In this document: one piece after another, positions 13,149-39,691 of the stretch
Layout of the letters: the number at the start of each line of letters is the position of its first letter
Numbering within the stretch: the first letter of the stretch is position 1
DNA from: Kingella negevensis
GTDB lineage: Bacteria; Pseudomonadota; Gammaproteobacteria; Burkholderiales; Neisseriaceae
Assembly (NCBI RefSeq): GCF_030177895.1
Contig: NZ_CP123448.1
Coordinates: 868,001-932,000 of the forward strand
Reading direction: 5' to 3'
DNA length: 64,000 nt
Translations under genes and position numbers: made by a program
The notes under the pieces: generated by a model
What the model saw: only the letters and a program-made list of their open reading frames with translations
Told to the model about the DNA's origin: nothing
Databases searched by the model: none

Positions 13149-13997
13149 GGGCTATTGACAATTCAAAAAAAGAGGCAAAGGATTTAAGATATTGTTTCCA
13201 TACAACCATCCTAAACCTTTGCCATGTCCCGAAACACGCTTACAAATGAAACATGGTCAAGACTGTTGCCTATTTTGAAACAGCTTGGCATTTATCGCAA
13301 GAAAAATTTACGCAAAACAGTAGAAGGTATCCTGTTTCGCTTACGTACAGGCTGCCAATGGGCTGATATACCTAGTTATTTTGGTAAAGCAAACAGCCTT
13401 TACCAAAGTTTCAATCGCTGGTCTAAACGCGGTATTTTTACCAAATTATTTAAACATTTGGCAGATACACCCGATATGGAATGGGTCTTTATGGACGGTA
13501 GTCATATCCGTGTTCATCAACACGGCATGGGTAAAAAATCCATTGTGCATCAAGCTGTCGGTAAGAGTATCGGAGGTCATACGTCTAAAATTCATTTAGC
13601 GGTTGATGCTTGTGGTAATCCAATTGAATTTATGATTACAGCTGGTAATGTAAATGAGATTGTTGTTGCGCCTGATTTATTGGCACAATTGGACTTAAGT
13701 GATAATGAAACCGTGTGTGCTGATAGGGGTTTTGACAGTGATACTTTTCGTCGGTTAATTCATTCTAAACAAAGTAAAGCCAATATTCCATATAAGAAAA
13801 ATAGAGAACATCTTAATGTGGACACAGATTGGTATTTATATAAAATCAGGCACTTGGTAGAAAATGCTTTTGCACGATTAAAGCATTTTCGTGCACTGGC
13901 AACACGGTACGATAAATTAAAACGTAATTATGAAAGTACCGTGTCATTAGCTTGTGCTTTGATTTGGTTGAAATTATAGCTAAAATGTCATTAGCCC
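13149..13997 (+). mobile_element. IS5-family element B, complete 849-bp copy nested in element A
   Basis: The ends GGGCTATTGAC and GTCATTAGCCC are imperfect inverted repeats, flanked by a 4-bp CTAG duplication (13145-13148 and 13998-14001). The YTAR-type 4-bp target fits the IS5 subgroup. One intact transposase fills the element. Confidence 0.9.
13224..13979 (+). CDS. IS5 family transposase (element B)
   Basis: A 251-residue DDE transposase in one intact frame. The N-terminal part has the insertion-element domain (GCQWADIPSYFGKANSLYQ). The catalytic residues appear as MDGSHIRVHQ (first Asp), CADRGFDS (second Asp) and HLVENAFARLKHFRAL, with the Glu in the YREK-like block near the C-terminus. 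Nothing is disrupted, so the element could still be active. Codon use is A/T-richer than that of neighbouring housekeeping genes. Confidence 0.95.
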   Translation: MSRNTLTNETWSRLLPILKQLGIYRKKNLRKTVEGILFRLRTGCQWADIPSYFGKANSLYQSFNRWSKRGIFTKLFKHLADTPDMEWVFMDGSHIRVHQHGMGKKSIVHQAVGKSIGGHTSKIHLAVDACGNPIEFMITAGNVNEIVVAPDLLAQLDLSDNETVCADRGFDSDTFRRLIHSKQSKANIPYKKNREHLNVDTDWYLYKIRHLVENAFARLKHFRALATRYDKLKRNYESTVSLACALIWLKL

Positions 13998-15214: not shown

Positions 15215-16378
15215 TCAGGCTGCCTGAAACGCTTGTTTCAATGTATTAACAACCACATCTTGCTCGGCTTCAGTCAAACCAAAATACAACGGCAAACTAA
15301 TCGCTTGCGCGTAATATGTTTCCGCGTGGGGGAATGCACCAGCCTGAAAACCAACAAGTTCGCGGTAATACGGCTGCGTATGCACAGGAATGTAATGCAC
15401 ATTCACACCAATGCCGTGTTCACGCAAATAATCAAACACTTGACGGCGATTTTTGCCGCTTTCAGGCAGCACACGAATCGGGTACAAATGCAGCGCAGAC
15501 ATATTTTCAGGGTTGCGATACGGTGTCGCTACAGGCGAATCCGCCAATAATTCATCATAACGCGTCGCCAATTCCTGACGACGAGCGACAAATTCATTTA
15601 AGCGCGTCATTTGGCTTACACCCAATGCTGCCTGAAGTTCCGTCATGCGATAGTTGAAGCCTAAATCCACTTGTTGATAATACCAAGAGCCGTCTGATTC
15701 GCCGACCATTTCATCAGCATTGCGCGTGATGCCGTGTGAACGTAACTGCGCGATTTTATTGGCTAATTCCGCGTTATTCGTTAAACATGCGCCGCCTTCT
15801 GCGGTTGTGATGATTTTGACTGGGTGGAAACTGAAAACGGTAATATCACTGTATTCGCAGTTGCCAACGTAGCCATTTTGATAACGTGCGCCAATCGCGT
15901 GTGATGCGTCTTCAATGATTTTGAAACCGTATTCTTTTGATAATGCGTGAATTTTTTGCATATCGCACGGTTCGCCACACAAATGCACAGGCACGATAAT
16001 TTTTGGTAAGCTGCCTGAAATTTTGGCGGCGGCTAATTTTTCCGCTAATGCGTCCACAGACATATTCATGGTTTTTGGGTCGATGTCCACAAAATCAACG
16101 CTTGCGCCGCAGTACAAACCGCAGTTTGCCGAAGCCACAAACGTGATTGGGCTTGTCCACAAAATATCGCCTTTGCCCAAACCAAGCGCGAGACAGGCGA
16201 TGTGCAGGGCAGCGGTGGCATTGCAGACGGCAATGGCGTGTTGTGCGCCGCAGTGGGTTTTCAGGCTGCTTTCAAATGCTGGGACTTGTGTGCCTTGGGT
16301 TAAATAGTCGGATTTTAAAACGCTGACAACGGCGGCGATGTCGGCTTCTGAAATGGTTTGTTTGCCGTAGGGAATCAT
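15215..16378 (-). CDS. pseC: UDP-4-amino-4,6-dideoxy-N-acetyl-beta-L-altrosamine transaminase
   Basis: A 387-residue PLP aminotransferase of the DegT/DnrJ/EryC1 family, second step of pseudaminic acid synthesis (adds the 4-amino group using glutamate). It starts MIPYGKQTISEADIAAV, typical of PseC. The cofactor loop is SFHPVKIITTAEGGA with Schiff-base Lys188; IIEDASHAIG holds the ring-stacking Asp. I prefer the start at 16376-16378 to one eight codons upstream, since family members begin with MIPYG. The protein ends FQAA because an uptake sequence supplies the last codons and the TGA stop. pseF follows. Confidence 0.92.
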   Translation of the reverse strand: MIPYGKQTISEADIAAVVSVLKSDYLTQGTQVPAFESSLKTHCGAQHAIAVCNATAALHIACLALGLGKGDILWTSPITFVASANCGLYCGASVDFVDIDPKTMNMSVDALAEKLAAAKISGSLPKIIVPVHLCGEPCDMQKIHALSKEYGFKIIEDASHAIGARYQNGYVGNCEYSDITVFSFHPVKIITTAEGGACLTNNAELANKIAQLRSHGITRNADEMVGESDGSWYYQQVDLGFNYRMTELQAALGVSQMTRLNEFVARRQELATRYDELLADSPVATPYRNPENMSALHLYPIRVLPESGKNRRQVFDYLREHGIGVNVHYIPVHTQPYYRELVGFQAGAFPHAETYYAQAISLPLYFGLTEAEQDVVVNTLKQAFQAA

Positions 16379-16463
16379 GATTTTGCTTTCGGGATTTTTC
16401 AAGCTGCGTTTTGTATTTGCAGCCTGAAAATGGAAAATTGAAAAATGTCATTTTAACGCAAAA

Positions 16464-21674: not shown

Positions 21675-22492
21675 GAACCTGTATTCACAAAAATGATAAA
21701 ATATCTTTATGACTAGAAAATCCTACCCAACAGACTTAACAGATGCCCAATGGCAAGCGATTGAGCCATATTTTAACCAGCTACGCCACTACAAATGGGA
21801 TAAACGTCAATTAGTGAATGCCGTTTTGTACATCACCAAAACAGGTTGCCAATGGCGTATGCTGCCCAATGATTTTCCACCTTATTCAACCGTATGGAGT
21901 TTCTATCGCAGAGCCAATCAATCAGGCTTATGGGATAGAATTCTTTTGGCATTGGTTCAAAAAAACGTTTAATCCATCAAAAACAAGCAATGCCAACTTA
22001 TGCCATTCTTGATTCACAAAGTGTCAAAACAGCTTCTAGCGCACATGATAAAGGTTTTGATGGAGGTAAAAAAATCAAAGGTCGTAAGCGACATATAGCT
22101 GTTGATACGTTGGGTAATCTATTGTCTGTTGTGGTTCATGCAGCCAATATTCATGACACAAAAGCAGGTATTTTTGTAGCAAAAAAAGCGTTTGAGACCT
22201 ATCCGAGTTTAAAAGGTTTCTGTGCGGACGCAGGTTATCGGAATACATTTGAGCGTGAAGTATCAGAGCAATTGGGTTTAACTGTTGAGATTTCAAAGAG
22301 AATTCAAGATATTTCTTGGCATATTCTGCCCAAACGTTGGATTGTAGAACGAACGTTTGCATGGTTAGGTTGGTCTCGACGTTTAGCAAAAGATTTTGAG
22401 CAGACGAATTTATCTGCTGAAAATTTTGTTAAACTAGGGTATATTTCACAAATATTAAAATTTATCAAATAGTTGTTTGTGAATACAGATTC
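21675..22492 (+). mobile_element. IS5-family element A, complete 818-bp copy
   Basis: Inverted-repeat ends GAACCTGTATTCACAAA and TTTGTGAATACAGATTC are flanked by TAA on both sides (21672-21674, 22493-22495), a 3-bp target as in the IS1031/IS427-type groups. The sequences outside the two ends do not belong to one gene: a promoter region lies left and a CheA fragment right. Confidence 0.9.
21709..22472 (+). CDS. IS5 family transposase (element A), two frames joined by a -1 frameshift
   Basis: Frame one (21709-21972, 87 residues, MTRKSYPTDLTDAQWQAIEP) carries the insertion-element domain. Frame two supplies the DDE core from AILDSQSVKT through DAGYRN to WIVERTFAWLGW, ending at 22472. At the end of frame one lies CAAAAAAAC, a slippery A_AAA_AAC heptamer. 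A -1 slip there gives QKKRLIHQKQAMPTYAILDS, which is continuous with the family. The fusion protein of about 253 residues is probably the active enzyme. This is the usual layout of IS427-type elements, so I do not consider it a broken gene. Confidence 0.87.
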
Positions 22493-23240: not shown

Positions 23241-25121
23241 ATGAGCAATTACGAACAAATTTATCAAGAAGCCTACCAATTATGGCAAAGCGGATACAAA
23301 GCAGAAGCATTAGATAAAATTCTCCCTTTAACTGAGCAAACAAACCAAGATGCCATTTTCAATTTAGCCGCCGTTTTACTGTGTGAAAACAACCGTATTG
23401 ACGAAGGCATCACCATGTGGCAACGCTTGCCTAACTGGGAACAATCCACCACCATGCTCAGCAATATGGGCAGTGCCTATCACAGAATGAATCGCTATGA
23501 AGAAGCATACGATTTCTTTCAACGCGCCTTGCAGGTAGATGAAAAAAATGTAGACGCATGGTTCAATTCCAGCGTTGTGTTGCGCAAATTAAAAAAGCAT
23601 GATGAAGCCACTCAATGCTTGGAACGCATTTTAGAAATTGCCCCTGATTATGTTGACGCAAAATTCAATCTTGCCCATGAATACCGCAATCATTTCAAAT
23701 TACCCCAAGCCATTCAGTTATACAGAGAAATCTTAAACACGCAGCCTGAAAATGATGAAGCCAAATTTGGTTTAGCCGTATGTTTGCAAGGCAATCACGA
23801 AGGAGAAAGCGCCCTTCCCTTTTATCAAGATTTGCTAGAAAACCACACAGGTTATGCCAAAGCCTTTCCCAACATGATGTTCAGCCTGCATTACATGACA
23901 CACATGCAGCCTGAAAACCTGTTTGCAGAAGCCAAACATCATGGCGACAGAATTGTGCGTACCCTATGCAAAAAAACCGCACCCAAACCCACTTTAGAAC
24001 AACAAAATAAACGTTTGCATATCGGTATTTTATCTGCCGATTTATGTTTACATCCCGTTGGCTATTTCGTTTCCAGCCTACTCAAAAGCCAAGCAACCGA
24101 ACAATTCGACTGGTCAGCCTATGCTAACAACGAACCAGACCATTTCGACACCTTAAGCGATTACATCAAACCCAGATTTAAAAACTGGCATGCTATTCAC
24201 GATTTAACAGATGAACAAGTCATCAAAAAAATCCAAGCAGACAAAATCGACATTCTGCTGGATTTATCAGGTTTAACTAAAGGACACCGCATCGGCGTAA
24301 TCGCCGCACAAGCTGCACCCGTGCAAATCAACTGGTTAGGTTATTTCGCCACCACAGGCTTATCTACCGAACAAGCCGTCATTGCTGACCCCTATTGCGT
24401 CCCAGAAGGCGAAGAAAAATGGTTTGTCGAAAAAGTTTGGCGCATGCCGCATACACGCTTGTGCATGCACGAACCACCAGAAGCAGGAGAAATCAACCCA
24501 TTGCCTGCGCTAAAAAACGGTTACATCACATTTGGCTGTTTCCAAAATATCCAAAAAATCAACTTATCCGTATTATCCACATGGGCAGAAATCGCACGCA
24601 CTCTACCCAACGCACGCTGGCGCATTCAGGCAGATAAGTTAAAACCCAACAGCCTGCACATGCAAAAATTTAAAGAAACCCTACGTCAAAGTGGCTTAGA
24701 CGAATCACGCGTAGACATTCACGAAGCCACCGATTTAATCGATTATTTCAAAGCATACAATGAAATCGACATCATTTTAGATACTTTCCCCTACCCTGGC
24801 GGAACAACCACATGCCAAGCCCTATGGATGGGCGTACCCACGCTCACCCTCACACAGCCAGGCATGTTAGCCAGACAAGGCGAACAACTCATGTCTGCCG
24901 CGCAACTGCCCGACTGGATATGCCACAACGAAGCCGAATATTTAGGCAAAGCCATCTATTGGGCGAACCCAGCCCGTTGGGGCATGCTCAACGCCATGCG
25001 CCTAGGCATGCGTAAACACGTCCGCAAAACCCCATTGTTTGATTACCAACAATTTGGTTCAGATTGGGCAGACCTAGTCAAACAAATATGGCAAGACGCA
25101 TGTCAAAGTAGCAATGAATAA
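23241..25121 (+). CDS. TPR protein with GT41 (O-GlcNAc transferase/SPINDLY-like) domain
   Basis: A 626-residue protein. Residues about 1-215 are tetratricopeptide repeats (e.g. AYHRMNRYEEAYDFFQRALQ). From about 250 the GT41 fold follows: RLHIGILSADLCLHPVGYF, DILLDLSGLTKGHR, APVQINWLGYFATTGL, FGCFQNIQKIN and the UDP-binding LDTFPYPGGTTTCQALWMG near the C-terminus. Such enzymes move a sugar from UDP-sugars to Ser/Thr (or Asn) of proteins in the cytoplasm. The nearby pseudaminic acid genes and type IV pilus genes make surface-protein glycosylation a reasonable role, but this is inference. It is not linked to a visible adhesin. Confidence 0.87.
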   Translation: MSNYEQIYQEAYQLWQSGYKAEALDKILPLTEQTNQDAIFNLAAVLLCENNRIDEGITMWQRLPNWEQSTTMLSNMGSAYHRMNRYEEAYDFFQRALQVDEKNVDAWFNSSVVLRKLKKHDEATQCLERILEIAPDYVDAKFNLAHEYRNHFKLPQAIQLYREILNTQPENDEAKFGLAVCLQGNHEGESALPFYQDLLENHTGYAKAFPNMMFSLHYMTHMQPENLFAEAKHHGDRIVRTLCKKTAPKPTLEQQNKRLHIGILSADLCLHPVGYFVSSLLKSQATEQFDWSAYANNEPDHFDTLSDYIKPRFKNWHAIHDLTDEQVIKKIQADKIDILLDLSGLTKGHRIGVIAAQAAPVQINWLGYFATTGLSTEQAVIADPYCVPEGEEKWFVEKVWRMPHTRLCMHEPPEAGEINPLPALKNGYITFGCFQNIQKINLSVLSTWAEIARTLPNARWRIQADKLKPNSLHMQKFKETLRQSGLDESRVDIHEATDLIDYFKAYNEIDIILDTFPYPGGTTTCQALWMGVPTLTLTQPGMLARQGEQLMSAAQLPDWICHNEAEYLGKAIYWANPARWGMLNAMRLGMRKHVRKTPLFDYQQFGSDWADLVKQIWQDACQSSNE

Positions 25122-25232
25122 GCACTGCTACCCAGCATTTTCAAAACTTAACAGTAAACCATAAAAAATTCGTGTGAGTAGAAATTGAAAGGTGTAAAAT
25201 CCAGCAACTAACATACAGAAAGGGCTTTTACC

Positions 25233-25592
25233 ATGAATCTCCAAAAAATGACTGAAGGTTTAGTCACACTAAAAGGAGCAATAGCAGCAGCAATTGTCGA
25301 TTACGAAAGCGGCATGCTGATGGCATCTGCCAACAACGACCCAAGCTACGATTTAGAAGTGGTAGCAGGACGAGGCAGCGAAGTGATTCGAGCCAAACGC
25401 CGCATTATGGACAGATTAGCGATGGACGATGAAATCAACGATATTTTGATTACATTAACCACGCAATATCACCTGATGTGTCCATCAAAAAAATACAAAC
25501 ATATGTTTATCTATCTCGCCGTAGATAGAAAAGAAGCCAACCTCTCGCGTTGCCGACAAGCCATTTTTGCGCTTGAAAAACAATTAGCCTAA
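25233..25592 (+). CDS. Roadblock/LC7-like protein
   Basis: A 119-residue protein without signal peptide. The pattern LKGAIAAAIVDYESGMLMAS followed by ILITLTTQYHLMCP and MFIYLAVDRKEANLSRCR fits a roadblock/LC7 fold (as in MglB-type GTPase partners). A GTPase partner is not visible nearby. It lies 111 bp downstream of the GT41 gene with an AGAAAGGG ribosome site and its own terminator. Roadblock proteins often modulate small GTPases in motility and polarity; a role here is unproven. Confidence 0.6.
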   Translation: MNLQKMTEGLVTLKGAIAAAIVDYESGMLMASANNDPSYDLEVVAGRGSEVIRAKRRIMDRLAMDDEINDILITLTTQYHLMCPSKKYKHMFIYLAVDRKEANLSRCRQAIFALEKQLA

Positions 25593-26762
<1,170 letters not shown>

Positions 26763-26791
26763 TTTTTCAGGCTGCCTGAAAGGAAATCTAA

Positions 26792-27202
26792 ATGGCAGAA
26801 TTATCTATCCAACTATTTAGCGACATCGTTACCCGATTGCAAGAAGGCTGGCAGCGTTATTTGCAAGACACCAGCGACACGCAAATCCGCGATGGATTGA
26901 TTCAACGCTTTGAATTTACCTACGAAATCAGCCATAAAATTTTAAAACGCTATTTAGAAAACACGTCCGCCGACTCCACGCAATTTGATTTGATAAGTTT
27001 TCAAGACATCATTCGCACCGCCAACGAGCAAAATTTATTGCTGGGAAATTGGGCGGATTGGAAACAATACCGCGATATGCGCGCGCGGACGAGCCACACT
27101 TACGATGAAGAAACCGCGATTGCTGTGGTGCAAGGCATTGAGAAATTTCTTGCGGAAGCGCAATTTTTACAGCAAAAACTTCAAGAAAAATCATGCCAGT
27201 AG
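26792..27202 (+). CDS. HEPN-domain protein, HI0074/HepT type
   Basis: A 136-residue helical protein of the nucleotidyltransferase substrate-binding (HI0074) family. The HEPN motif RX4HXY is present as RARTSHTY (Arg97, His102, Tyr104). It pairs with the MNT-type gene that overlaps it by 10 bp. In studied pairs (HepT-MntA) the HEPN protein is an RNase toxin and the MNT partner adenylylates it to silence it. Ribosome site GAAAGGAA lies inside an uptake sequence that opens the island. Confidence 0.88.
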   Translation: MAELSIQLFSDIVTRLQEGWQRYLQDTSDTQIRDGLIQRFEFTYEISHKILKRYLENTSADSTQFDLISFQDIIRTANEQNLLLGNWADWKQYRDMRARTSHTYDEETAIAVVQGIEKFLAEAQFLQQKLQEKSCQ

Positions 27203-27501
27203 AATTAAACATTTCGCCCGATGAATGGCAAATTGTGCAAACGATTTTGCAGCAACACATTTCGCAACGCACGGTGTGGGCGTTTGGTTCGCGCGTAAAT
27301 GGCAAGGCAAAGCCGTATTCGGATTTGGATTTAGCAGTGCTGGGCGACACGCCGCTTTCTTTGGCGGAACACGCGGATTTGGTGGGCGCTTTTTCGGAAA
27401 GCGATTTGCCGTGGAAAGTAGATTTGGTGGATTGGTGTTTGATTGGCGATGAGTTTCGGGCGATTGTGGCGGTGCGGTATTTTGTGGTGCAGGCTGCCTG
27501 A
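27193..27501 (+). CDS. MNT-type nucleotidyltransferase, HI0073/MntA-like
   Basis: A 102-residue minimal nucleotidyltransferase. It shows the exact GSX10DXD signature: Gly32-Ser33, then Asp44 and Asp46 in GSRVNGKAKPYSDLDLAVL, with a third acid in KVDLVD. It probably neutralises its HEPN partner by AMP transfer. It overlaps the HEPN gene by 10 bp. The last three codons (QAA) and TGA stop come from an uptake sequence. Confidence 0.88.
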   Translation: MPVELNISPDEWQIVQTILQQHISQRTVWAFGSRVNGKAKPYSDLDLAVLGDTPLSLAEHADLVGAFSESDLPWKVDLVDWCLIGDEFRAIVAVRYFVVQAA

Positions 27502-27521
27502 AAATTTGAAGGAGTAGAAAA

Positions 27522-27773
27522 ATGAATAATGTTCACTATACATTTCAATTAGATAATCATTTGAAACAGGCATTTTTTCAGGCTGCCAAGGAATCCAATC
27601 GCAGTAGTGCGGAATTATTGCGCGAATTGATGCGCGAGTTTGTGCAAAAGCAGGCTGCCACGCCAAAGAAAGTCAGTTTAGCTGAAAAATTAGGCGGTTA
27701 TCATCCAGCAGCAGAAGTAAATTTTGAGTTTGAGCGAGAAATGGACGAATTTCGCGCAGCGGAGTTTGACTAA
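27522..27773 (+). CDS. RHH-type antitoxin of a PIN toxin-antitoxin pair
   Basis: An 83-residue protein: residues about 3-45 (VHYTFQLDNHLKQAFFQAAK, then SSAELLRELMREFV) look like a ribbon-helix-helix DNA-binding domain. An acidic tail (FEFEREMDEFRAAEFD) would wrap the toxin. The stop overlaps the toxin ATG (TAATG), the usual coupling of such pairs. In-frame uptake sequence codons encode FFQAA. GGAG ribosome site is present. Confidence 0.8.
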   Translation: MNNVHYTFQLDNHLKQAFFQAAKESNRSSAELLRELMREFVQKQAATPKKVSLAEKLGGYHPAAEVNFEFEREMDEFRAAEFD

Positions 27774-28201
27774 TGTATCTGCTTGATACCAATATTGTTT
27801 CTGAATTACGAAAACTAGACAGCAATAAAATCAATCCAAACGTGCAAAAATGGGCGGAACAAGTTGATTTTGATAAAACATTTATCAGCGTGATAACAAT
27901 TAGCGAAATTCAAATGGGTATTTTACGTTTGGCGCAAAGTGATAAACAGCAAGCGAATATGTTGGCGGATTCGTTTGAAAATCAGGTTTTACCCGAATAT
28001 CAATCGCGCAGTATTTTGATAAATAAAGAAATTGCTTTGCGTTATGCTACTTTACACATTCCCAATAAACGCCCTGTAAATGATGCCTTTATTGCGGCGA
28101 CTGCATTGGAATATGATTTTGTGTTGGTTACGCGCAATATTAAGGATTTTCAGGGTGTGGGACTGAAATTGCTTAATCCGTTTGAGTTTCAGGCTGCCTG
28201 A
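27773..28201 (+). CDS. PIN-domain toxin (VapC/FitB-like)
   Basis: A 142-residue PIN ribonuclease. Acidic active-site residues are visible: Asp5 in LLDTN, Glu45 in TISEIQMG, Asp104 in VNDAFIAATA, and Asp125 in RNIKDF. This spacing fits VapC/FitB; FitAB of Neisseria gonorrhoeae is the best-known relative. Antitoxin gene precedes it with one base overlap. The C-terminus ends FQAA through an uptake sequence. Confidence 0.9.
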   Translation: MYLLDTNIVSELRKLDSNKINPNVQKWAEQVDFDKTFISVITISEIQMGILRLAQSDKQQANMLADSFENQVLPEYQSRSILINKEIALRYATLHIPNKRPVNDAFIAATALEYDFVLVTRNIKDFQGVGLKLLNPFEFQAA

Positions 28202-28214
28202 AAAAGGAAAATCA

Positions 28215-29138
28215 ATGAAATATGAAGATATGAAACGATACGACCAACGCAGCATTTTAATGCCAATTTTAATTAAATTGCTGCAAAATCTTGGTGGTAA
28301 AACAACACGCAAAGAATTGCGAAATGAAATTAAATCGTCAGTAAAAGAAATTCCAGAAGAATTTATTGATGAAACAAGACCTGCAAAAAATGGGGGGACT
28401 TATCGTCCTTTTGATTTTGTATTTAATTTTGGAGTTGCCAATTTAGAAATGGCAGGCTTTATAAAACGTCCTAACCGTGGCGAGATTATTCTTACCGAAA
28501 AAGGTAGAGCCTGTAATAGTGAAGATATTGATGTTGAAAGAGATATTTACGCATTTTCTGACCCAATGTGGAAAGAACGCCGTGCAAATAAGAAAAATAG
28601 TAATAAAGTAAAAATTGAAGAAGAAGACGAAGAAGAAAATAGTATTAAAGAAACAGAAGAAAATGATGTCAGTGAAAATTGGAAAGAGCAATTAAAACAA
28701 GCTCTTCTTAATATGTCGCCCAAAAAATTTGAAATATTTTGTCGTGCATTGATCAAAGCCATGGGGGTAGATATAGACGATAAAAAAGGCGTTTCTGAAA
28801 CGAGAGACGGTGGATTGGACGGTTTCGGCTATATTGTTTCTGATGATTTTCGGACTTCTCGTGTTGCTATTCAAGCTAAACGTTGGACGAATACGCGAGT
28901 AGGTTCTCCTGAAATTAACCAATTTGCAGGGGCAATGGATCTTCACAATGCTGAATTTGGTATTTTTATTACTACTTCTGATTTTTCACGAGAAGCGATT
29001 GAAAATTCTCGTAATAGAAAAAGAGCTATTACCTTAATCAATGGCGATAAAATCATTGAATTAGTTGAAAAATATCAGTTATACGTCAAACCAATCACAA
29101 CCTTTCAGCTTGAAGATTTCTATTTTGAAGAAAACTAA
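28215..29138 (+). CDS. Mrr-like restriction endonuclease
   Basis: A 307-residue protein. An Mrr N-terminal winged-helix domain (about 8-110) precedes a very acidic linker (about 133-155, EEEDEEENSIKETEENDVSE). The Mrr catalytic PD-(D/E)xK domain shows ETRDGGLDGFGYI (Asp202) and VAIQAKRW (Gln220, Lys222). This resembles type IV enzymes that cut modified DNA; no methyltransferase is adjacent, consistent with that type. I take the ATG at 28215, which has an AAGGAAAA ribosome site, over an upstream start inside the PIN gene. Confidence 0.87.
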   Translation: MKYEDMKRYDQRSILMPILIKLLQNLGGKTTRKELRNEIKSSVKEIPEEFIDETRPAKNGGTYRPFDFVFNFGVANLEMAGFIKRPNRGEIILTEKGRACNSEDIDVERDIYAFSDPMWKERRANKKNSNKVKIEEEDEEENSIKETEENDVSENWKEQLKQALLNMSPKKFEIFCRALIKAMGVDIDDKKGVSETRDGGLDGFGYIVSDDFRTSRVAIQAKRWTNTRVGSPEINQFAGAMDLHNAEFGIFITTSDFSREAIENSRNRKRAITLINGDKIIELVEKYQLYVKPITTFQLEDFYFEEN

Positions 29139-29193
29139 TTTTCAGGCTGCCTGCCCCCCATTTTAATTTTAGAAAACAAAGAGATTTTAAAAA

Positions 29194-31548
29194 ATGCAAT
29201 TCTCCTACACATGGCTAAAAACCCAAGCCAACCCCAATTTATCCGCCGACCAACTTTCCCACTTGCTGACCATGGCAGGTTTGGAAGTGGAAGAACTCAA
29301 CGCAGCCGCCCCCGATTTTTCGGGCGTGGTGGTGGCGGAAGTCAAATCCGTTGAAAAACACCCCGACGCTGACCGCCTGAACGTAACCCAAGTGGACGCA
29401 GGCACAGGCGAGTTAATCCAAATCGTGTGCGGTGCGCCGAATGTGAAAGTGGGCATTAAAGTGCCGTGTGCTTTGCCTAACGCATTGTTACCAAACGACT
29501 TTAAAATCAAACCAACCAAAATGCGTGGCGTGGTGTCCAACGGTATGTTGTGTTCCGCCAAAGAATTGGGTTTGGAAGACAAGGTGGACGGCTTGCTCGT
29601 GCTGCCTGAAAACGCGCCAGTCGGTCAAAATATCCGCGAATTTTTGGATTTGGACGACGCGATTTTTACGCTGAAAATCACGCCAAACCGCACCGATTGT
29701 TTGAGCATTAAAGGCATTGCGCGTGAAGTGTCGGCTTTGACGCAATGCGAATTTAATCCTATTCAAATCAATCACATCGCCACGCAAACCACGCAAAAAC
29801 AAGCCATACAAATTGACGCACCAAACGACTGCGGACGTTTTATCAGTCGCGTGATTTTGGGTGTGAACGCGACCGCCGCCAGCCCTGATTGGTTGGTGCA
29901 ACGCTTGGAACGTAGCGGCATTCGCAGCATTTCGCCGCTCATGGACATCGGCAATTATGTGATGTTGGAAATCGGGCAGCCGATGCACGTTTTTGACGCG
30001 GATAAAATTTCAGGCAGCCTGCACGTTCGCCGCGCGAAAAATGGCGAAGTGCTTGATTGTTTGAATGAAAAAACGGTTACGCTGGCGGACAATACGCTTG
30101 TGATTGCCGATGAACAGCAAGCCTTGTCTATCGCTGGTTTGATGGGCGGTGCGGCGAGTGCGGTTTCTGATGAAACGAAAAATATTGTTTTGGAAGCGGC
30201 GTGGTTTAATCCGTTGATTATTTCAGGAAAATCAAGACAATACGGTTTTGGTTCGGACAGCTCTTTCCGTTTTGAACGCGGTGTGGACAGCGAATTACAA
30301 CGCGATGCGATTGAACGCGCAACGGAATTGGTCGTGCAAATTTGCGGCGGTGAAATGGGCGAAATCATGGAAGTGTTGGGCGATTTGCCTGCCGCGAAAA
30401 CGGTGGAAGTTCGCACGGCTCGCGTGGAAAAAGTGTTGGGCGTTTCTATTGAAAATCAACGCATTGAAACGATTTTGCAGCATTTGGGTTTGCAGCCTGA
30501 AAAAACGGCGGACGGTTTCCGCGTTACCGCACCAAGTTTCCGCTATGATATTGAAATTGAAGCGGATTTGATTGAAGAAATTGCTCGCGTGTATGGCTAC
30601 GAGAATATTCCTGATGATTACACGTCGGGTAAATTGGCGATGTTGAAGCTGCCTGAAAACCGTCATTCGCGTTTTGGCGTGTATCAAAAAATGGCGGCTC
30701 GTGGTTTCCAAGAAGTCGTGAGTTATGCGTTTGTAGACGAGCAATGGGAACAAGATTTTGCGAATAATCAAGACCCTATCCGTTTACAAAATCCGTTGGC
30801 GGCACAATACGCGGTCATGCGTTCTACGTTGATGGGCGGCTTGATTGAGATTCTGCAAAACAATTTGAATCGCAAACAAAATCGCGTGCGTGTGTTTGAA
30901 ATTGCGCGTATTTTCCGTAAAGAAAACAATCAGTTTGTACAAACGGAACGTGTGGGCGGTTTGGTTTACGGCTCGGCGTTACCTGAACAATGGGGCGAAA
31001 AATCGCATCCTGTGGATTTTTACGATTTGAAAGCGGACGTGGAAACGCTGTTGCGTGGCAAAAACGCGGCGTTTGTGAAAGCGGAACATTCGGCGTTGCA
31101 CCCAGGGCGTTGCGCGGCGATTGTGGTTGATGGCGCCAATGTCGGCATCATCGGTGAGTTGCACCCGAAATGGACGCAAAAATACGATTTGCCGCAAGCG
31201 CCGTTGTTGTTTGAATTGGACATGGACGCAGTGCTGGCGACTGAAAAAGTGCGTTATCAGGCGGTGTCTAAATTCCAAGCTGGGCGACGTGATTTGGCGT
31301 TTGTGCTGCCTGAAAATGTGGCGTTTGCGGATTTGCAGGCTGCTTTAGGTCAAGTAAATAACCCGATTATTCAAGGAATTGAGTTGTTTGACGTGTATCG
31401 CGGTGCGGGGCTGCCTGAAAATCATAAATCTTTGGCGGTCAAAATTTCGCTGCAAGATATGAACGCGACTTTGACTGATGAAACGGTTGAGCCGATTATT
31501 CAGGAATTGATTGCACAAGCGGAAACGGTTGGGGCGAAATTGCGTTAA
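29194..31548 (+). CDS. pheT: Phenylalanine-tRNA ligase beta subunit
   Basis: A 784-residue subunit (family about 790). In order: N-terminal tRNA-binding EMAP/OB domain (from MQFSYTWLKTQANPNLS to about 150), B3/B4 editing domain, B5 (about 405-475), core catalytic-like domain, and the C-terminal ferredoxin-fold anticodon-binding domain (KFQAGRRDLAFVLPENV onward). It completes the alpha2-beta2 PheRS with pheS. An in-frame uptake sequence encodes ISGSL in the editing region. ihfA does not follow it here, unlike in Neisseria. Confidence 0.96.
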   Translation: MQFSYTWLKTQANPNLSADQLSHLLTMAGLEVEELNAAAPDFSGVVVAEVKSVEKHPDADRLNVTQVDAGTGELIQIVCGAPNVKVGIKVPCALPNALLPNDFKIKPTKMRGVVSNGMLCSAKELGLEDKVDGLLVLPENAPVGQNIREFLDLDDAIFTLKITPNRTDCLSIKGIAREVSALTQCEFNPIQINHIATQTTQKQAIQIDAPNDCGRFISRVILGVNATAASPDWLVQRLERSGIRSISPLMDIGNYVMLEIGQPMHVFDADKISGSLHVRRAKNGEVLDCLNEKTVTLADNTLVIADEQQALSIAGLMGGAASAVSDETKNIVLEAAWFNPLIISGKSRQYGFGSDSSFRFERGVDSELQRDAIERATELVVQICGGEMGEIMEVLGDLPAAKTVEVRTARVEKVLGVSIENQRIETILQHLGLQPEKTADGFRVTAPSFRYDIEIEADLIEEIARVYGYENIPDDYTSGKLAMLKLPENRHSRFGVYQKMAARGFQEVVSYAFVDEQWEQDFANNQDPIRLQNPLAAQYAVMRSTLMGGLIEILQNNLNRKQNRVRVFEIARIFRKENNQFVQTERVGGLVYGSALPEQWGEKSHPVDFYDLKADVETLLRGKNAAFVKAEHSALHPGRCAAIVVDGANVGIIGELHPKWTQKYDLPQAPLLFELDMDAVLATEKVRYQAVSKFQAGRRDLAFVLPENVAFADLQAALGQVNNPIIQGIELFDVYRGAGLPENHKSLAVKISLQDMNATLTDETVEPIIQELIAQAETVGAKLR

Positions 31549-31559
31549 TCGTGTAAATA

Positions 31560-31597
31560 TTCAGGCAGCCTGAAAGGGGATTTTCAGGCTGCCTGAA
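31560..31597. repeat. Uptake-sequence cluster downstream of pheT
   Basis: Two full DUS copies, TTCAGGCAGCCTGAAA and TTTTCAGGCTGCCTGAA, lie within 40 bp. They stand for the family of repeats scattered through the window, mostly between genes or as facing pairs. Confidence 0.85.
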
Positions 31598-31603
31598 TCG
31601 AAA

Positions 31604-31640
31604 AAAACAGCCTGAAAATAATCTTTCAGGCTGCTTTTTC
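31604..31640. terminator. Bidirectional terminator between pheT and mntP
   Basis: CAGCCTGAAAATAATCTTTCAGGCTG forms a stem with A-run and T-run flanks between convergent genes. Confidence 0.75.
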
Positions 31641-32210
31641 TTATAAATATCCTAAATGTTCCAACAAAATAAACGTGCCAATCCCAATCAACACCAAACC
31701 ACCAATAAACTCTGCTCGTTTGCCTACAACATCACCCAACACGCCGCCTAATTTCACGCCAATCGCTGCCATCAATGTGGTTGCAGAGCCAATCGCCAGC
31801 GCGGTTAGCCAAATATTCACGTCCAAAAATGCCAGCGTTACGCCCACAATCATGGAATCAATACTGGTTGCGATGGCTGTAATCAACAAGAGCCATTTAG
31901 ATGGCATGACTGCCGTTTCAGCCTCGTCTTCATCATCGGGCGAAAAACTCTCCCAAATCATTTTTCCGCCCAACACCAGCAGCAAACCAAACGCAACCCA
32001 ATGGTCAAACGCTTCAATATACGGCGCGGCGATTGTGCCAGCTCCGTAACCAATCAGCGGCGTAATGGTTTCCACAACGCCAAAAGTCAGCGCAATTTTT
32101 ACGATGTGTGAATTGCTTGGTTTGCCCATACTTGCACCGCGTGCGATTGCTGCCGCGAATGCGTCTGCCGACATGCTGAACGCCAGCAACACTGTAGCCA
32201 CTAAGTTCAT
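31641..32210 (-). CDS. mntP: Manganese efflux pump MntP
   Basis: A 189-residue membrane protein with six predicted helices. The two MntP repeats are marked by SMSADAFAAAIARG (helix 1) and ATSIDSMIVGVT (mid-protein), holding the Asp residues needed for export. It exports Mn2+ from the cytoplasm. Its upstream gap of 48 bp is too short for a manganese riboswitch. Neighbouring DMP19-like gene is 48 bp upstream in the same direction. Confidence 0.92.
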   Translation of the reverse strand: MNLVATVLLAFSMSADAFAAAIARGASMGKPSNSHIVKIALTFGVVETITPLIGYGAGTIAAPYIEAFDHWVAFGLLLVLGGKMIWESFSPDDEDEAETAVMPSKWLLLITAIATSIDSMIVGVTLAFLDVNIWLTALAIGSATTLMAAIGVKLGGVLGDVVGKRAEFIGGLVLIGIGTFILLEHLGYL

Positions 32211-32258: not shown

Positions 32259-32714
32259 TCAGGCTGCCTGAAAAAGCTCAAGATGCGCGTTCACGTATTC
32301 ACACACCGCCAAAATGTCTTCATCAGAACATTCAAAATATTCCGCGTCCAGCTCTTCAAAATCGGCAAAACGCTGACGCAAGGTATCCAAATCCACTTCA
32401 GGATTTTCGTCCACAGCCGCTTCAATTTGTTCACCAAATTTTTGGTACAACGCACGTGCTTTGTCCAACACTTTGGGCGTGGACTTGATTTTCCAACGGC
32501 GCAAACTATCGGCAACTGGGTTCAGCAAAATATATTCGCCGTAGCCTGATGCAATCAGTTGCACAAAACCGCCCTCTTGCACTTCACTATCCAGCCAGCA
32601 ATACGCCAGCAAGGTGTGCTGTTCATCGCTCAAAGCCTCGCTGCCTTGTGTTTCCAGTTTGTCCAACAAACGCGCAGCCAGCGAATACAATTCTTCAATC
32701 GTCATTTTTTCCAT
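32259..32714 (-). CDS. DUF4375/DMP19-like acidic protein
   Basis: A 151-residue, strongly acidic, helical protein. The pattern LLAYCWLDSEVQEGGFVQLI followed by SGYGEYILLNPVADSLR matches DUF4375, the family of the Neisseria DNA-mimic protein DMP19. The acid-rich C-terminus (DEDILAVCEYVNAHLEL) fits a DNA mimic. DMP19 binds a repressor in Neisseria; here a partner is not visible. It ends FQAA from an uptake sequence. Confidence 0.75.
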   Translation of the reverse strand: MEKMTIEELYSLAARLLDKLETQGSEALSDEQHTLLAYCWLDSEVQEGGFVQLIASGYGEYILLNPVADSLRRWKIKSTPKVLDKARALYQKFGEQIEAAVDENPEVDLDTLRQRFADFEELDAEYFECSDEDILAVCEYVNAHLELFQAA

Positions 32715-39025: not shown

Positions 39026-39691
39026 TCAGGCTGCCTGAAGCGTCAAAACACCCTGCTCCATGCGCCACACTTCATCTGCCAACGCGTCCGCGTCTGCTTT
39101 ATCATGCGTAATCAGTAACATAGGAATATCCAATTCCTGCTGCAACGCCGCCACTTCCTGCCGCATTTGGGCGCGTAAATCCGTATCCAACGCAGAAAAC
39201 GGTTCATCAAGCAACAAGCAACGCGGCTGAACCACGCACGCTCTTGCCAATGCGGTGCGCTGTTTTTGTCCGCCTGAAAGCTGGTGCGGATAATGGCTGG
39301 CTAGGTGCGTTAATTGCATTTTGTTCAGCCATTTTTCTGTTTGTTCATCAAAGGTTAGCGGCGGATTGCGCCAGTTTTGGTGCAATCCAAAGGCGATATT
39401 CTGCACAACAGTTAAATGTGGAAACAGCGCGTAATCTTGAAACATCAATCCAACGCCACGTTTTTGCGTGGGCAACCATGTTTTTTCGTCTGCAAAACAG
39501 GTTTCTTGAATAACGATTTTGGTGGCGCGTGGGCGGATTAGTCCTGCCAACACTTGCAGCGTAAGGCTTTTGCCTGAACCGCTTGCACCCACAATCGCCA
39601 GCCGTTTGGCTTGGCTTTGGCATTGAACGTTCAGCGAAAAGGCGTGGTTTTTGTTGCGGATTTCGGTTTGAATGGAAAAATCAAAAATCAT
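39026..39691 (-). CDS. modC: Molybdate ABC transporter ATP-binding protein
   Basis: A 221-residue ABC ATPase: Walker A GASGSGKSLTL (about 37-47), the ABC signature LSGGQKQRTALARA, Walker B CLLLDEPFSALD and the H-loop LLITHDKADA. It lacks the C-terminal TOBE domain seen in E. coli ModC; the neighbouring TOBE protein might fill this part. It powers molybdate import with ModB. It ends LQAA through an uptake sequence. Confidence 0.9.
   Translation of the reverse strand: MIFDFSIQTEIRNKNHAFSLNVQCQSQAKRLAIVGASGSGKSLTLQVLAGLIRPRATKIVIQETCFADEKTWLPTQKRGVGLMFQDYALFPHLTVVQNIAFGLHQNWRNPPLTFDEQTEKWLNKMQLTHLASHYPHQLSGGQKQRTALARACVVQPRCLLLDEPFSALDTDLRAQMRQEVAALQQELDIPMLLITHDKADADALADEVWRMEQGVLTLQAA

Follow-up and report, generated by a model that had tools for sequence, protein, structure and literature searches.

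Introduction

What occupies the interval between pheS and pheT in Kingella negevensis, and by what route does such content come and go? Minimal mobile elements are not known to carry mobility genes of their own. Saunders and Snyder in 2002 and Snyder et al. in 2007 reportedly described such an element in Neisseria, located at pheS/pheT. Passages of PMC3082526 describe the pheS/pheT content in Neisseria and define the element by different whole-gene cassettes in different strains; a passage of PMC7973814 places NmeDI at pheS/pheT. The concept and the site in Neisseria are already published, and what we add is the reach of the site across the family and HEPN/MNT as a recurrent occupant.

We analyzed a 64,000-nucleotide stretch of K. 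negevensis DNA (the window; Table 1) together with related genomes. The pheS-pheT gap is most likely an accessory site of the minimal-mobile-element kind, exchanged by recombination and holding three modules here.

Content of the gap

The gap (26763-29193) contains five closely packed ORFs, all open and all on the plus strand. They make up three short modules: HEPN/MNT, RHH-like/PIN and an Mrr-type nuclease. ORF calls, family matches and exact matches to DNA uptake sequences (DUS) bear out the first-pass annotation, which had described five genes in one direction bounded by uptake sequences. G+C content is 0.39 in the gap versus 0.44 in the window. Profile scans of the window gap with Pfam, NCBIfam and PADLOC found no integrase, transposase or other mobility gene. 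Structured RNA was considered and rejected, Rfam giving 0 matches at the gathering threshold in 25000-32000.

Table 1. Features between and including pheS and pheT, in window coordinates.
Feature	Position	Strand	Evidence
pheS, conserved left flank	25767..26762	+	TIGR00468 above cut-off
DUS dyad (king/sim), directly 3' of pheS stop, TTCAGGCTGCCTGAA	26766..26780	.	exact match
ORF1, HEPN toxin-like, HI0074 family	26792..27202	+	PF08780 NTase_sub_bind 2.3e-32; TIGR01987; PDB 1jog, 8xdj
ORF2, MNT nucleotidyltransferase, antitoxin-like	27193..27501	+	PF18765/PF01909; PDB 1no5 HI0073 4.5e-30
DUS overlapping MNT stop, contributes stop codon (Q-A-A-stop)	27491..27502	.	exact match
ORF3, RHH-like antitoxin candidate, 83 aa	27522..27773	+	74% to A. 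filiformis protein; weak 7by2_A; low-confidence model
ORF4, PIN-domain (VapC/FitB-like) toxin candidate	27773..28201	+	PF01850 1.2e-12; FitB 2h1o 1.8e-12
DUS dyad overlapping PIN stop, contributes stop codon	28188..28202	.	exact match
ORF5, Mrr-type (type IV) restriction endonuclease candidate	28215..29138	+	PF04471 Mrr_cat 7.1e-29; PF14338 Mrr_N
Single DUS between Mrr and pheT	29141..29152	.	exact match
pheT, conserved right flank	29194..31548	+	TIGR00472

The HEPN and MNT reading frames overlap by 10 bp. PF08780 appears among the HEPN domains adjoining MNT in sections of PMC7641770 and PMC11586414, and the former gives RX4HXY (HEPN) and GSX10DXD (MNT) as the motifs of HepT/MntA type VII toxin-antitoxin (TA) systems. 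Both occur in the window pair: translation and alignment place RX4HXY at R97-H102-Y104 of ORF1, and GSX10DXD is found in the translation of ORF2. The pair resembles HepT/MntA in these motifs and in its adjacent, overlapping genes, but belongs to the HI0074/HI0073 subfamily, known here from sequence, and ORF2 scores 42.2 against NCBIfam MntA, under the cut-off of 60. One homologue (locus L106) has L in place of the first R of RX4HXY, so the motif is not universal at the site.

For the second module, the PIN half of the RHH/PIN pair proposed in the first-pass annotation is borne out by its Pfam family, while an RHH identity for its partner is plausible, short of proof. A protein of Kingella kingae matches ORF4 at 97% over 89%, and ORF4 also matches the VapC chain of PDB 7by2. 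ORF3 has no match in Pfam, NCBIfam or PADLOC. In UniRef its Alysiella filiformis relative is called 'Ribbon-helix-helix protein, copG family', and ORF3 itself matches the CopG-type partner in 7by2 weakly (E 0.1). The structure model shows a coil followed by two helices but decides nothing, with a mean pLDDT of 55.5 from 5 sequences. PDB matches of ORF3 to a TAL-effector and to protein A were treated as chance. The module resembles FitAB/VapBC type II TA systems in its FitB match and the small partner gene upstream; it differs in that this partner falls in no recognised antitoxin family and its RHH fold is putative.

The third module has the domain composition of type IV restriction, the Mrr catalytic and N-terminal domains of ORF5 both scoring above cut-off. 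ORF5 also matches PADLOC mREase_IV (2.3e-25) and, weakly, AspBHI (4oc8, E 0.006).

Variation among relatives

The two conserved flanks lie on one stretch in 71 of the 77 genomes with pheS; the other 6 have pheT off the fetched stretch. Gap statistics refer to these 71 genomes, with a second locus of one genome (L159 of G010) excluded and the window itself outside the counts. The shortest gap measures 10 bp and the longest 4215 bp, and 37 genomes have one of more than 400 bp. As a control we used pilQ-aroB in the 63 of 83 genomes where both genes are adjacent on one contig, with distances copied by hand from match to match (accurate to some tens of bases). This omits genomes in which either match is missing, pairs on separate contigs and seven pairs far apart on one contig (G001, G017, G019, G029, G044, G052 and G068; the aroB of G019 is some 12.9 kb downstream). 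Gaps above 800 bp are found in 34/71 genomes at pheS-pheT versus 5/63 at the control (p 3e-7), or 11/69 with six of the far-apart pairs restored (p 6e-5). Above 400 bp the figures are 37/71 versus 15/63 (p 0.001), so the control varies too. Both length thresholds were chosen by us.

Cargo was recognised in 26 of the 37 gaps above 400 bp by hand tally, some of it assigned through its BLAST cluster without an individual scan. The recognised types are HEPN/MNT, type II restriction-modification parts, HEC-01, HEC-02, a YhcG-type nuclease and Mrr. Of 94 gap ORFs of at least 100 aa, 86 run in the direction of pheS. Among the 8 opposite ORFs, four are antisense to HEPN/MNT and only the methylase in two loci (L127, L129) was judged surely genuine. 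These ORFs are the longest non-overlapping set, a choice that hid some HEPN/MNT pairs; they were recovered by tblastn.

By PheS, the nearest of the genomes compared are G068, G083 and G067 (91-92%) and Conchiformibius sp. G002 (93% over 250 residues). All three closest linked relatives, A. filiformis (L087), G083 (L088) and Conchiformibius sp. (L161), carry other cargo than the window. G067, whose pheS and pheT sit on separate contigs, probably does as well. The first-pass annotation had set fixation of the same five genes in all relatives against its own proposal, and the three differing loci show that there is no such fixation. The co-directional, tight packing of the five genes would suit a fixed addition to the pheST operon passed on by vertical descent, but for this lineage that is very improbable: the cargo of the closest linked relatives contradicts fixation at species and genus level, and any Mrr homologue occurs in just 4/83 genomes. 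An exchangeable site is the preferred reading, with different whole-gene cassettes seen, in our comparison, between species and genera. With its varied cargo of defence or TA type, the gap is upheld as an accessory hot spot beyond Neisseria proper. The earlier proposal that the hot spot extends to the genus of the window was right in direction and too narrow in scope, as the site spans the DUS-bearing family.

HEPN is a recurrent occupant of the gap. A close homologue occurs in 12 genomes and lies within the pheS-pheT gap in 9/12, used as a count only, since a binomial value would presuppose independent random positions, which does not hold. An MNT match accompanies HEPN in 8 of the 9 other genomes with HEPN in the gap. 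HEPN/MNT is also found at other loci, for example adjoining rsmA in A. filiformis. HEPN and PheT identities are not significantly correlated (Mantel rho 0.20, with 207/2000 permutations as high; 12 genomes). The Neisseria animalis gap holds a related Mrr (65%). RHH/PIN was seen at the site only in the window, among the relatives compared. The 'new cargo set' of the first-pass annotation therefore holds for RHH/PIN, and not for HEPN or Mrr.

These counts bear on a different view of the cargo, that it is mainly selfish: two TA pairs persisting by addiction beside essential genes, at a merely tolerant site and with any defence incidental. Four of the five window ORFs are TA-like, and apart from type II restriction parts (10/37 filled gaps) no single type of occupant recurs as often as HEPN (9/37), mostly accompanied by MNT. 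Some copies are damaged, with stops in the HEPN of G007 and a fragmented MNT in G028 (L120), and RHH and PIN fragments, remnants of TA systems, are found elsewhere in A. filiformis and in G067. The type II restriction-modification parts in ten gaps are, however, cargo other than TA, as are the PADLOC candidates HEC-01, HEC-02 and PDC-S02 in others. We regard a mainly selfish cargo as possible, though rather doubtful.

Cassette exchange and uptake sequences

The preferred reading, exchange through the flanking genes, is illustrated best by two Neisseria genomes (L126 and L135), in which a 2752-bp cassette is 99.5% identical while the flanks on either side reach 90-92%. Mismatches number 13/2752 bp in the gap, 100/993 in pheS, 21 in the first 450 positions of pheT and 161 in the other 1902. 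A near-identical cassette between diverged flanks is the pattern that homologous recombination would leave, and in this pair such boundaries agree with the swapping through flanking housekeeping genes put forward in the first-pass annotation. A second pair (L127/L129) has one stretch 99-100% alike and another that differs.

Entry through integrase or transposon insertion is very unlikely. The initial arrival of a foreign module does require some illegitimate or short-homology step, and the window has two transposase ORFs outside the gap (13224-13979 and 21990-22472). Against this, identity between L126 and L135 declines gradually into pheT, as in homologous recombination, and a Pfam scan of 34 cargo proteins from linked gaps, which took in neither L092 nor the entire HEPN/MNT stretch of L113, found no integrase or transposase.

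In the window gap, DUS of the king/sim dialect (12-mer AGGCWGCCTGAA) lie at each module border. The gap has 4 places versus 1.44 expected from the 38 in 64 kb, which is weak as a count; their placement at the borders says more. With a relaxed 11-mer, one further place appears in the gap, inside a gene. Compared with shuffles, the hairpins of the two dyads give z of -1.32 and -0.85, and the remaining DUS give +0.97 and +0.61; as DUS folding is thus only modestly better than that of shuffles, we claim no terminator role. Across filled gaps including the window, 43/59 own-dialect DUS are at gene borders versus 14.3 expected from the non-coding share. Short gaps of DUS genomes already have DUS in 13/16 cases. 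Crowding of DUS near the ends of genes may be a general trait of such genomes and not peculiar to this gap.

Gaps exceed 400 bp in 35/51 DUS-dense loci versus 2/20 DUS-poor loci (cut-offs of 0.3 or 0.2 DUS per kb, chosen by us), an association confounded by kinship, as the DUS-poor loci look like few clades. Several observations weigh against the preferred reading: 16/36 filled gaps listed besides the window are without own-dialect DUS, two DUS-poor loci (L102 of G007 and L091 of G042) are filled, and the L126/L135 cassette has none within it.

Proposed mechanism and related systems

Under the preferred reading, DUS-bearing DNA would enter the cell, probably via natural transformation, and recombine via the conserved pheS and pheT, replacing what lies between. 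Each module is closed by a DUS and, by eye, appears to have its own ribosome-binding site in front. The modules are probably transcribed within the pheS-pheT transcript. Promoter signal in 25100-31700 is not above chance (4 found versus 11.2 expected), which fits read-through without demonstrating it. From their families, HEPN/MNT is predicted to be an RNase toxin silenced by AMP transfer and RHH/PIN is a candidate VapBC-like pair, while the Mrr nuclease would be expected to cut incoming methylated DNA. We infer, in sum, the transformation route, read-through expression, the activity of the modules and a benefit against phages or plasmids.

The site shares with the Neisseria pheS/pheT element its flanks and place, genome-variable cargo, restriction systems and the lack of observed mobility genes. 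It differs in extending to other genera and DUS dialects; in the window, three modules are stacked, and TA pairs with a type IV nuclease take the place of a type II system. According to PMC10250203, diverse immune systems at cDHS1 of Pseudomonas aeruginosa adjoin conserved translation genes, with PheS, PheT and RplT as neighbours; merR and a DUF4011 gene serve as its markers, its sites span 1-224 kb, and all but 29% have a detectable mobile gene. Both places hold diverse systems near PheS/PheT, but the Neisseriaceae gap splits pheS from pheT, reaches at most 4215 bp in the linked relatives and has no mobility gene seen.

If this is correct, one fixed address would reveal the restriction, TA and candidate defence genes circulating in any DUS-bearing Neisseriaceae species, and would offer a case in which the exchange of defence genes across species of differing uptake dialects can be tested. 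Unknown genes at pheS-pheT would then be good candidates for new defence systems. Two unrecognised families recur: a protein of 317-324 aa (L087, L091, L110 and L118; L102 carries a fused version) and a HATPase-like protein of 620-625 aa (L104 and L108). As a tentative joint reading, DUS-bearing Neisseriaceae might share one transformation-fed site in which DUS dyads at module joints let single modules be added or swapped, HEPN/MNT is a resident addiction module, and these two families are undescribed defence systems.

The pheS–pheT gap of the window

The window's gap holds five open ORFs, all co-directional, as expected from the first-pass annotation, which had named a HEPN/MNT pair, an RHH/PIN pair and an Mrr-like nuclease. 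Family and PDB matches make ORF1 and ORF2 an HI0074/HI0073-type HEPN/MNT pair; their translations contain RX4HXY (R97, H102, Y104) and GSX10DXD, respectively, the published HEPN/MNT signature motifs (PMC7641770). ORF4 is a PIN-domain protein that matches FitB. The small protein encoded upstream of it, ORF3, may be RHH-like, but this identity is weak and the structure model was too poor to help. ORF5 combines an Mrr_N with an Mrr_cat domain, and PADLOC assigns it as a type IV methyl-directed enzyme. Biochemical roles of the modules are those predicted from their protein families.

The DNA uptake sequence (DUS) 12-mer AGGCWGCCTGAA occurs at four places in the gap, one per border of the three modules, which agrees with the earlier claim that uptake sequences bound the cargo. 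At two of the four, the DUS provides the stop codon of the upstream gene (CAG GCT GCC TGA, Q-A-A-stop). QAA endings occur in 3 of the 53 mechanical ORFs of at least 150 aa in the window, plus the shorter MNT and PIN genes. Overlapping king/sim DUS dyads are described for Simonsiella muelleri (PMC3630211) and for Alysiella crassa and Kingella negevensis (PMC7371117), which places the window's organism close to these species. The window also has two DDE transposase ORFs, both outside the pheS–pheT gap.

Earlier reports of the site

One of the two founding papers on minimal mobile elements reportedly extends such elements to other bacteria in its title. The restriction system NmeDI is located between pheS and pheT (PMC7973814), and in Pseudomonas aeruginosa a large hot spot of defence systems lies close to pheST (PMC10250203). 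Judged by title and abstract start, none of the open-licence papers listed in our searches deals with pheS–pheT cargo in other Neisseriaceae genera; PMC11316581 does not mention pheS. The present analysis adds the reach of the site across the family, the recurrence of HEPN/MNT among its occupants and the stacked, DUS-bounded modules.

Gap length across the family

pheS was present in 77 of 83 Neisseriaceae genomes. We took all 77 neighbourhoods (78 loci) and located pheT by tblastn; both genes lay on one stretch in 71 genomes. The gap is 10–13 bp in five loci, 217–344 bp in twelve DUS-poor loci (Snodgrassella L143 and L144 among them) and at most 4215 bp. Excess length above 800 bp was found at pheS–pheT in 34/71 versus 5/63 for the control interval pilQ–aroB (p 3e-7), and above 400 bp in 37/71 versus 15/63 (p 0.001). 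The control omits seven pilQ–aroB pairs that lie far apart on one contig; with six of these counted as excess it reaches 11/69 over 800 bp (p 6e-5). The control is quieter than pheS–pheT, yet not silent. Gaps over 400 bp occur in 35 of 51 DUS-dense loci versus 2 of 20 DUS-poor loci, a comparison confounded by kinship.

In two loci (L151 in genome G065, L152 in G004) an S66 peptidase gene follows pheS and pheT is not nearby, so the pheST operon seems to be split; L151 additionally has a Sel1-repeat protein and a threonyl-type tRNA synthetase after pheS. In G054 (L164), pheS, pilQ and aroB are each fragmented, more likely through faults of the assembly than for a biological reason.

Cargo of filled gaps

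A hand tally over the 37 filled gaps (>400 bp) assigned a recognised restriction, toxin–antitoxin (TA) or candidate defence protein to 26 (Table). The proposal of an accessory hot spot beyond Neisseria with defence-type cargo is supported. HEC-01, HEC-02 and PDC-S02 are PADLOC labels for candidate systems. The nearest relatives carry other cargo, not the same five genes: 96-aa and 317-aa proteins in A. filiformis (L087), an HEC-01 pair and two more proteins in G083 (L088), and an HEC-02 pair in Conchiformibius sp. (L161). In G067 (L176), a type II system lies directly 5' of pheT, with pheS on a different contig.

In the recurrent 317–324 aa family, neither the L087 nor the L091 member has a PADLOC match or a Pfam match above the cut-off; HARE-HTH matches weakly in the L091 and L102 members. 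The family is a candidate for an unknown defence gene. The 95–104 aa ORF lies directly after pheS in several loci, and its L087 copy, the only one scanned, has no Pfam match.

Table. Features of the window and of pheS–pheT gaps (loci, L) in other Neisseriaceae genomes
Feature	Gaps	Location	Remark
Window pheS–pheT gap		26763–29193	
DUS as stop codon, MNT		27491–27502	C-terminal QAA tail
DUS as stop codon, PIN		28188–28202	C-terminal QAA tail
Other ORFs with stop codon from DUS		15215–16402, 32259–32714, 39026–39691 on the minus strand	In window
Six-C run		29154–29159	Directly after last DUS, ahead of pheT; could vary in length
DDE transposase ORF		13224–13979	PF01609; additional IS4/5-type PF13340 match
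DDE transposase ORF		21990–22472	PF01609
HEPN, with MNT intact or not	9	L093, L094, L097, L098, L101, L102, L106, L113, L120	
Type II restriction-modification parts	10	L119, L123, L126, L127, L129, L131, L133, L135, L148, L156	
HEC-01	2	L088, L153	
HEC-02	2	L132, L161	
YhcG/PDC-S02	2	L110, L112	Two pieces in L110
Mrr	1	L090	
Nothing recognised	11	L087, L091, L092, L095, L104, L108, L118, L124, L130, L134, L155	L092: just a fragment resembling the third gene of L127
317–324 aa family		L087, L091, L110, L118	Two ORFs in L110 and L118; L102 form fused behind MNT domain (412 aa)
620–625 aa HATPase-like protein		L104:12093–13967, L108:2516–4375	Main cargo; no PADLOC match
95–104 aa ORF	9	L087, L088, L094, L095, L097, L101, L124, L130, L134	
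Second accessory site, rsmA–ABC ATPase		L172:3945–7180, L173, L174	L172 is A. filiformis

Window modules in other genomes

Of the 83 genomes, 13 have a HEPN match, which is close (E < 1e-40) in 12. The close match sits in the pheS–pheT gap in nine of the 12; it is at another locus in A. filiformis (G068) and G067, and on a contig without pheS in G061. An MNT match adjoins HEPN in eight of the nine gaps, and G028 keeps pieces only. Four of the 83 genomes have an Mrr homologue; that of N. animalis, directly after pheS, is the closest at about 65%. PIN has homologues in 28 of 83, but the fetched pheS–pheT gaps contain no copy of it or of ORF3, making RHH/PIN the only window module not seen at this site elsewhere. 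The cargo set, first described as new, is so only in part. The nearest named PIN relative, with 97% identity over 89%, is annotated in Kingella kingae.

Between rsmA (PF00398) and an ABC ATPase gene, A. filiformis has an RHH-like protein (74%) whose gene is flanked by DUS, followed by NADAR, an RHH fragment, HEPN and MNT; near rsmA in G067, a PIN fragment lies with a NADAR gene. Parts of both window TA modules are therefore adjacent at a second site in relatives.

Evidence for exchange

The best exchange pair is L126 (G020, a mucDUS genome) and L135 (G051, Neisseria viridiae), which have a common 2752-bp gap with 13 mismatches (99.53%). Their flanks are less similar: pheS is 89.9% identical, pheT 95.3% over its first 450 bp and 91.5% over the remainder, and the upstream DNA 89.7% (1295 aligned bases). 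On the pheS side of L127 and L129 (Vsr gene and part of a methylase), several hundred bases are 99–100% identical and the sequences diverge further on, so individual parts can be exchanged on their own. Among 12 genomes, HEPN and PheT identities are not significantly correlated (Mantel rho 0.20; 207 of 2000 permutations gave at least this value). A single branch of the HEPN tree separates in-gap from other-site copies with weak support (66/76, 62% of bootstrap trees); 7 of 500 label shuffles equalled this split, and no inner branch of the tree is fully supported.

The anatomy of the site, its diverse cargo and the pattern of exchange between species are seen directly in these loci. Transformation would bring in the DNA, because gene borders hold 43 of the 59 DUS in filled gaps (14.3 expected from the non-coding share) and 13 of 16 short gaps in DUS genomes already contain DUS. 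Recombination via pheS and pheT would then exchange the cargo. Own-dialect DUS are absent inside many filled gaps, L126 and L135 included, and uptake there would have to rely on DUS within the flanking genes. Cargo may be expressed by read-through, since 86 of 94 gap ORFs run in the direction of pheS and promoter signals are not above chance in the window's 25100–31700.
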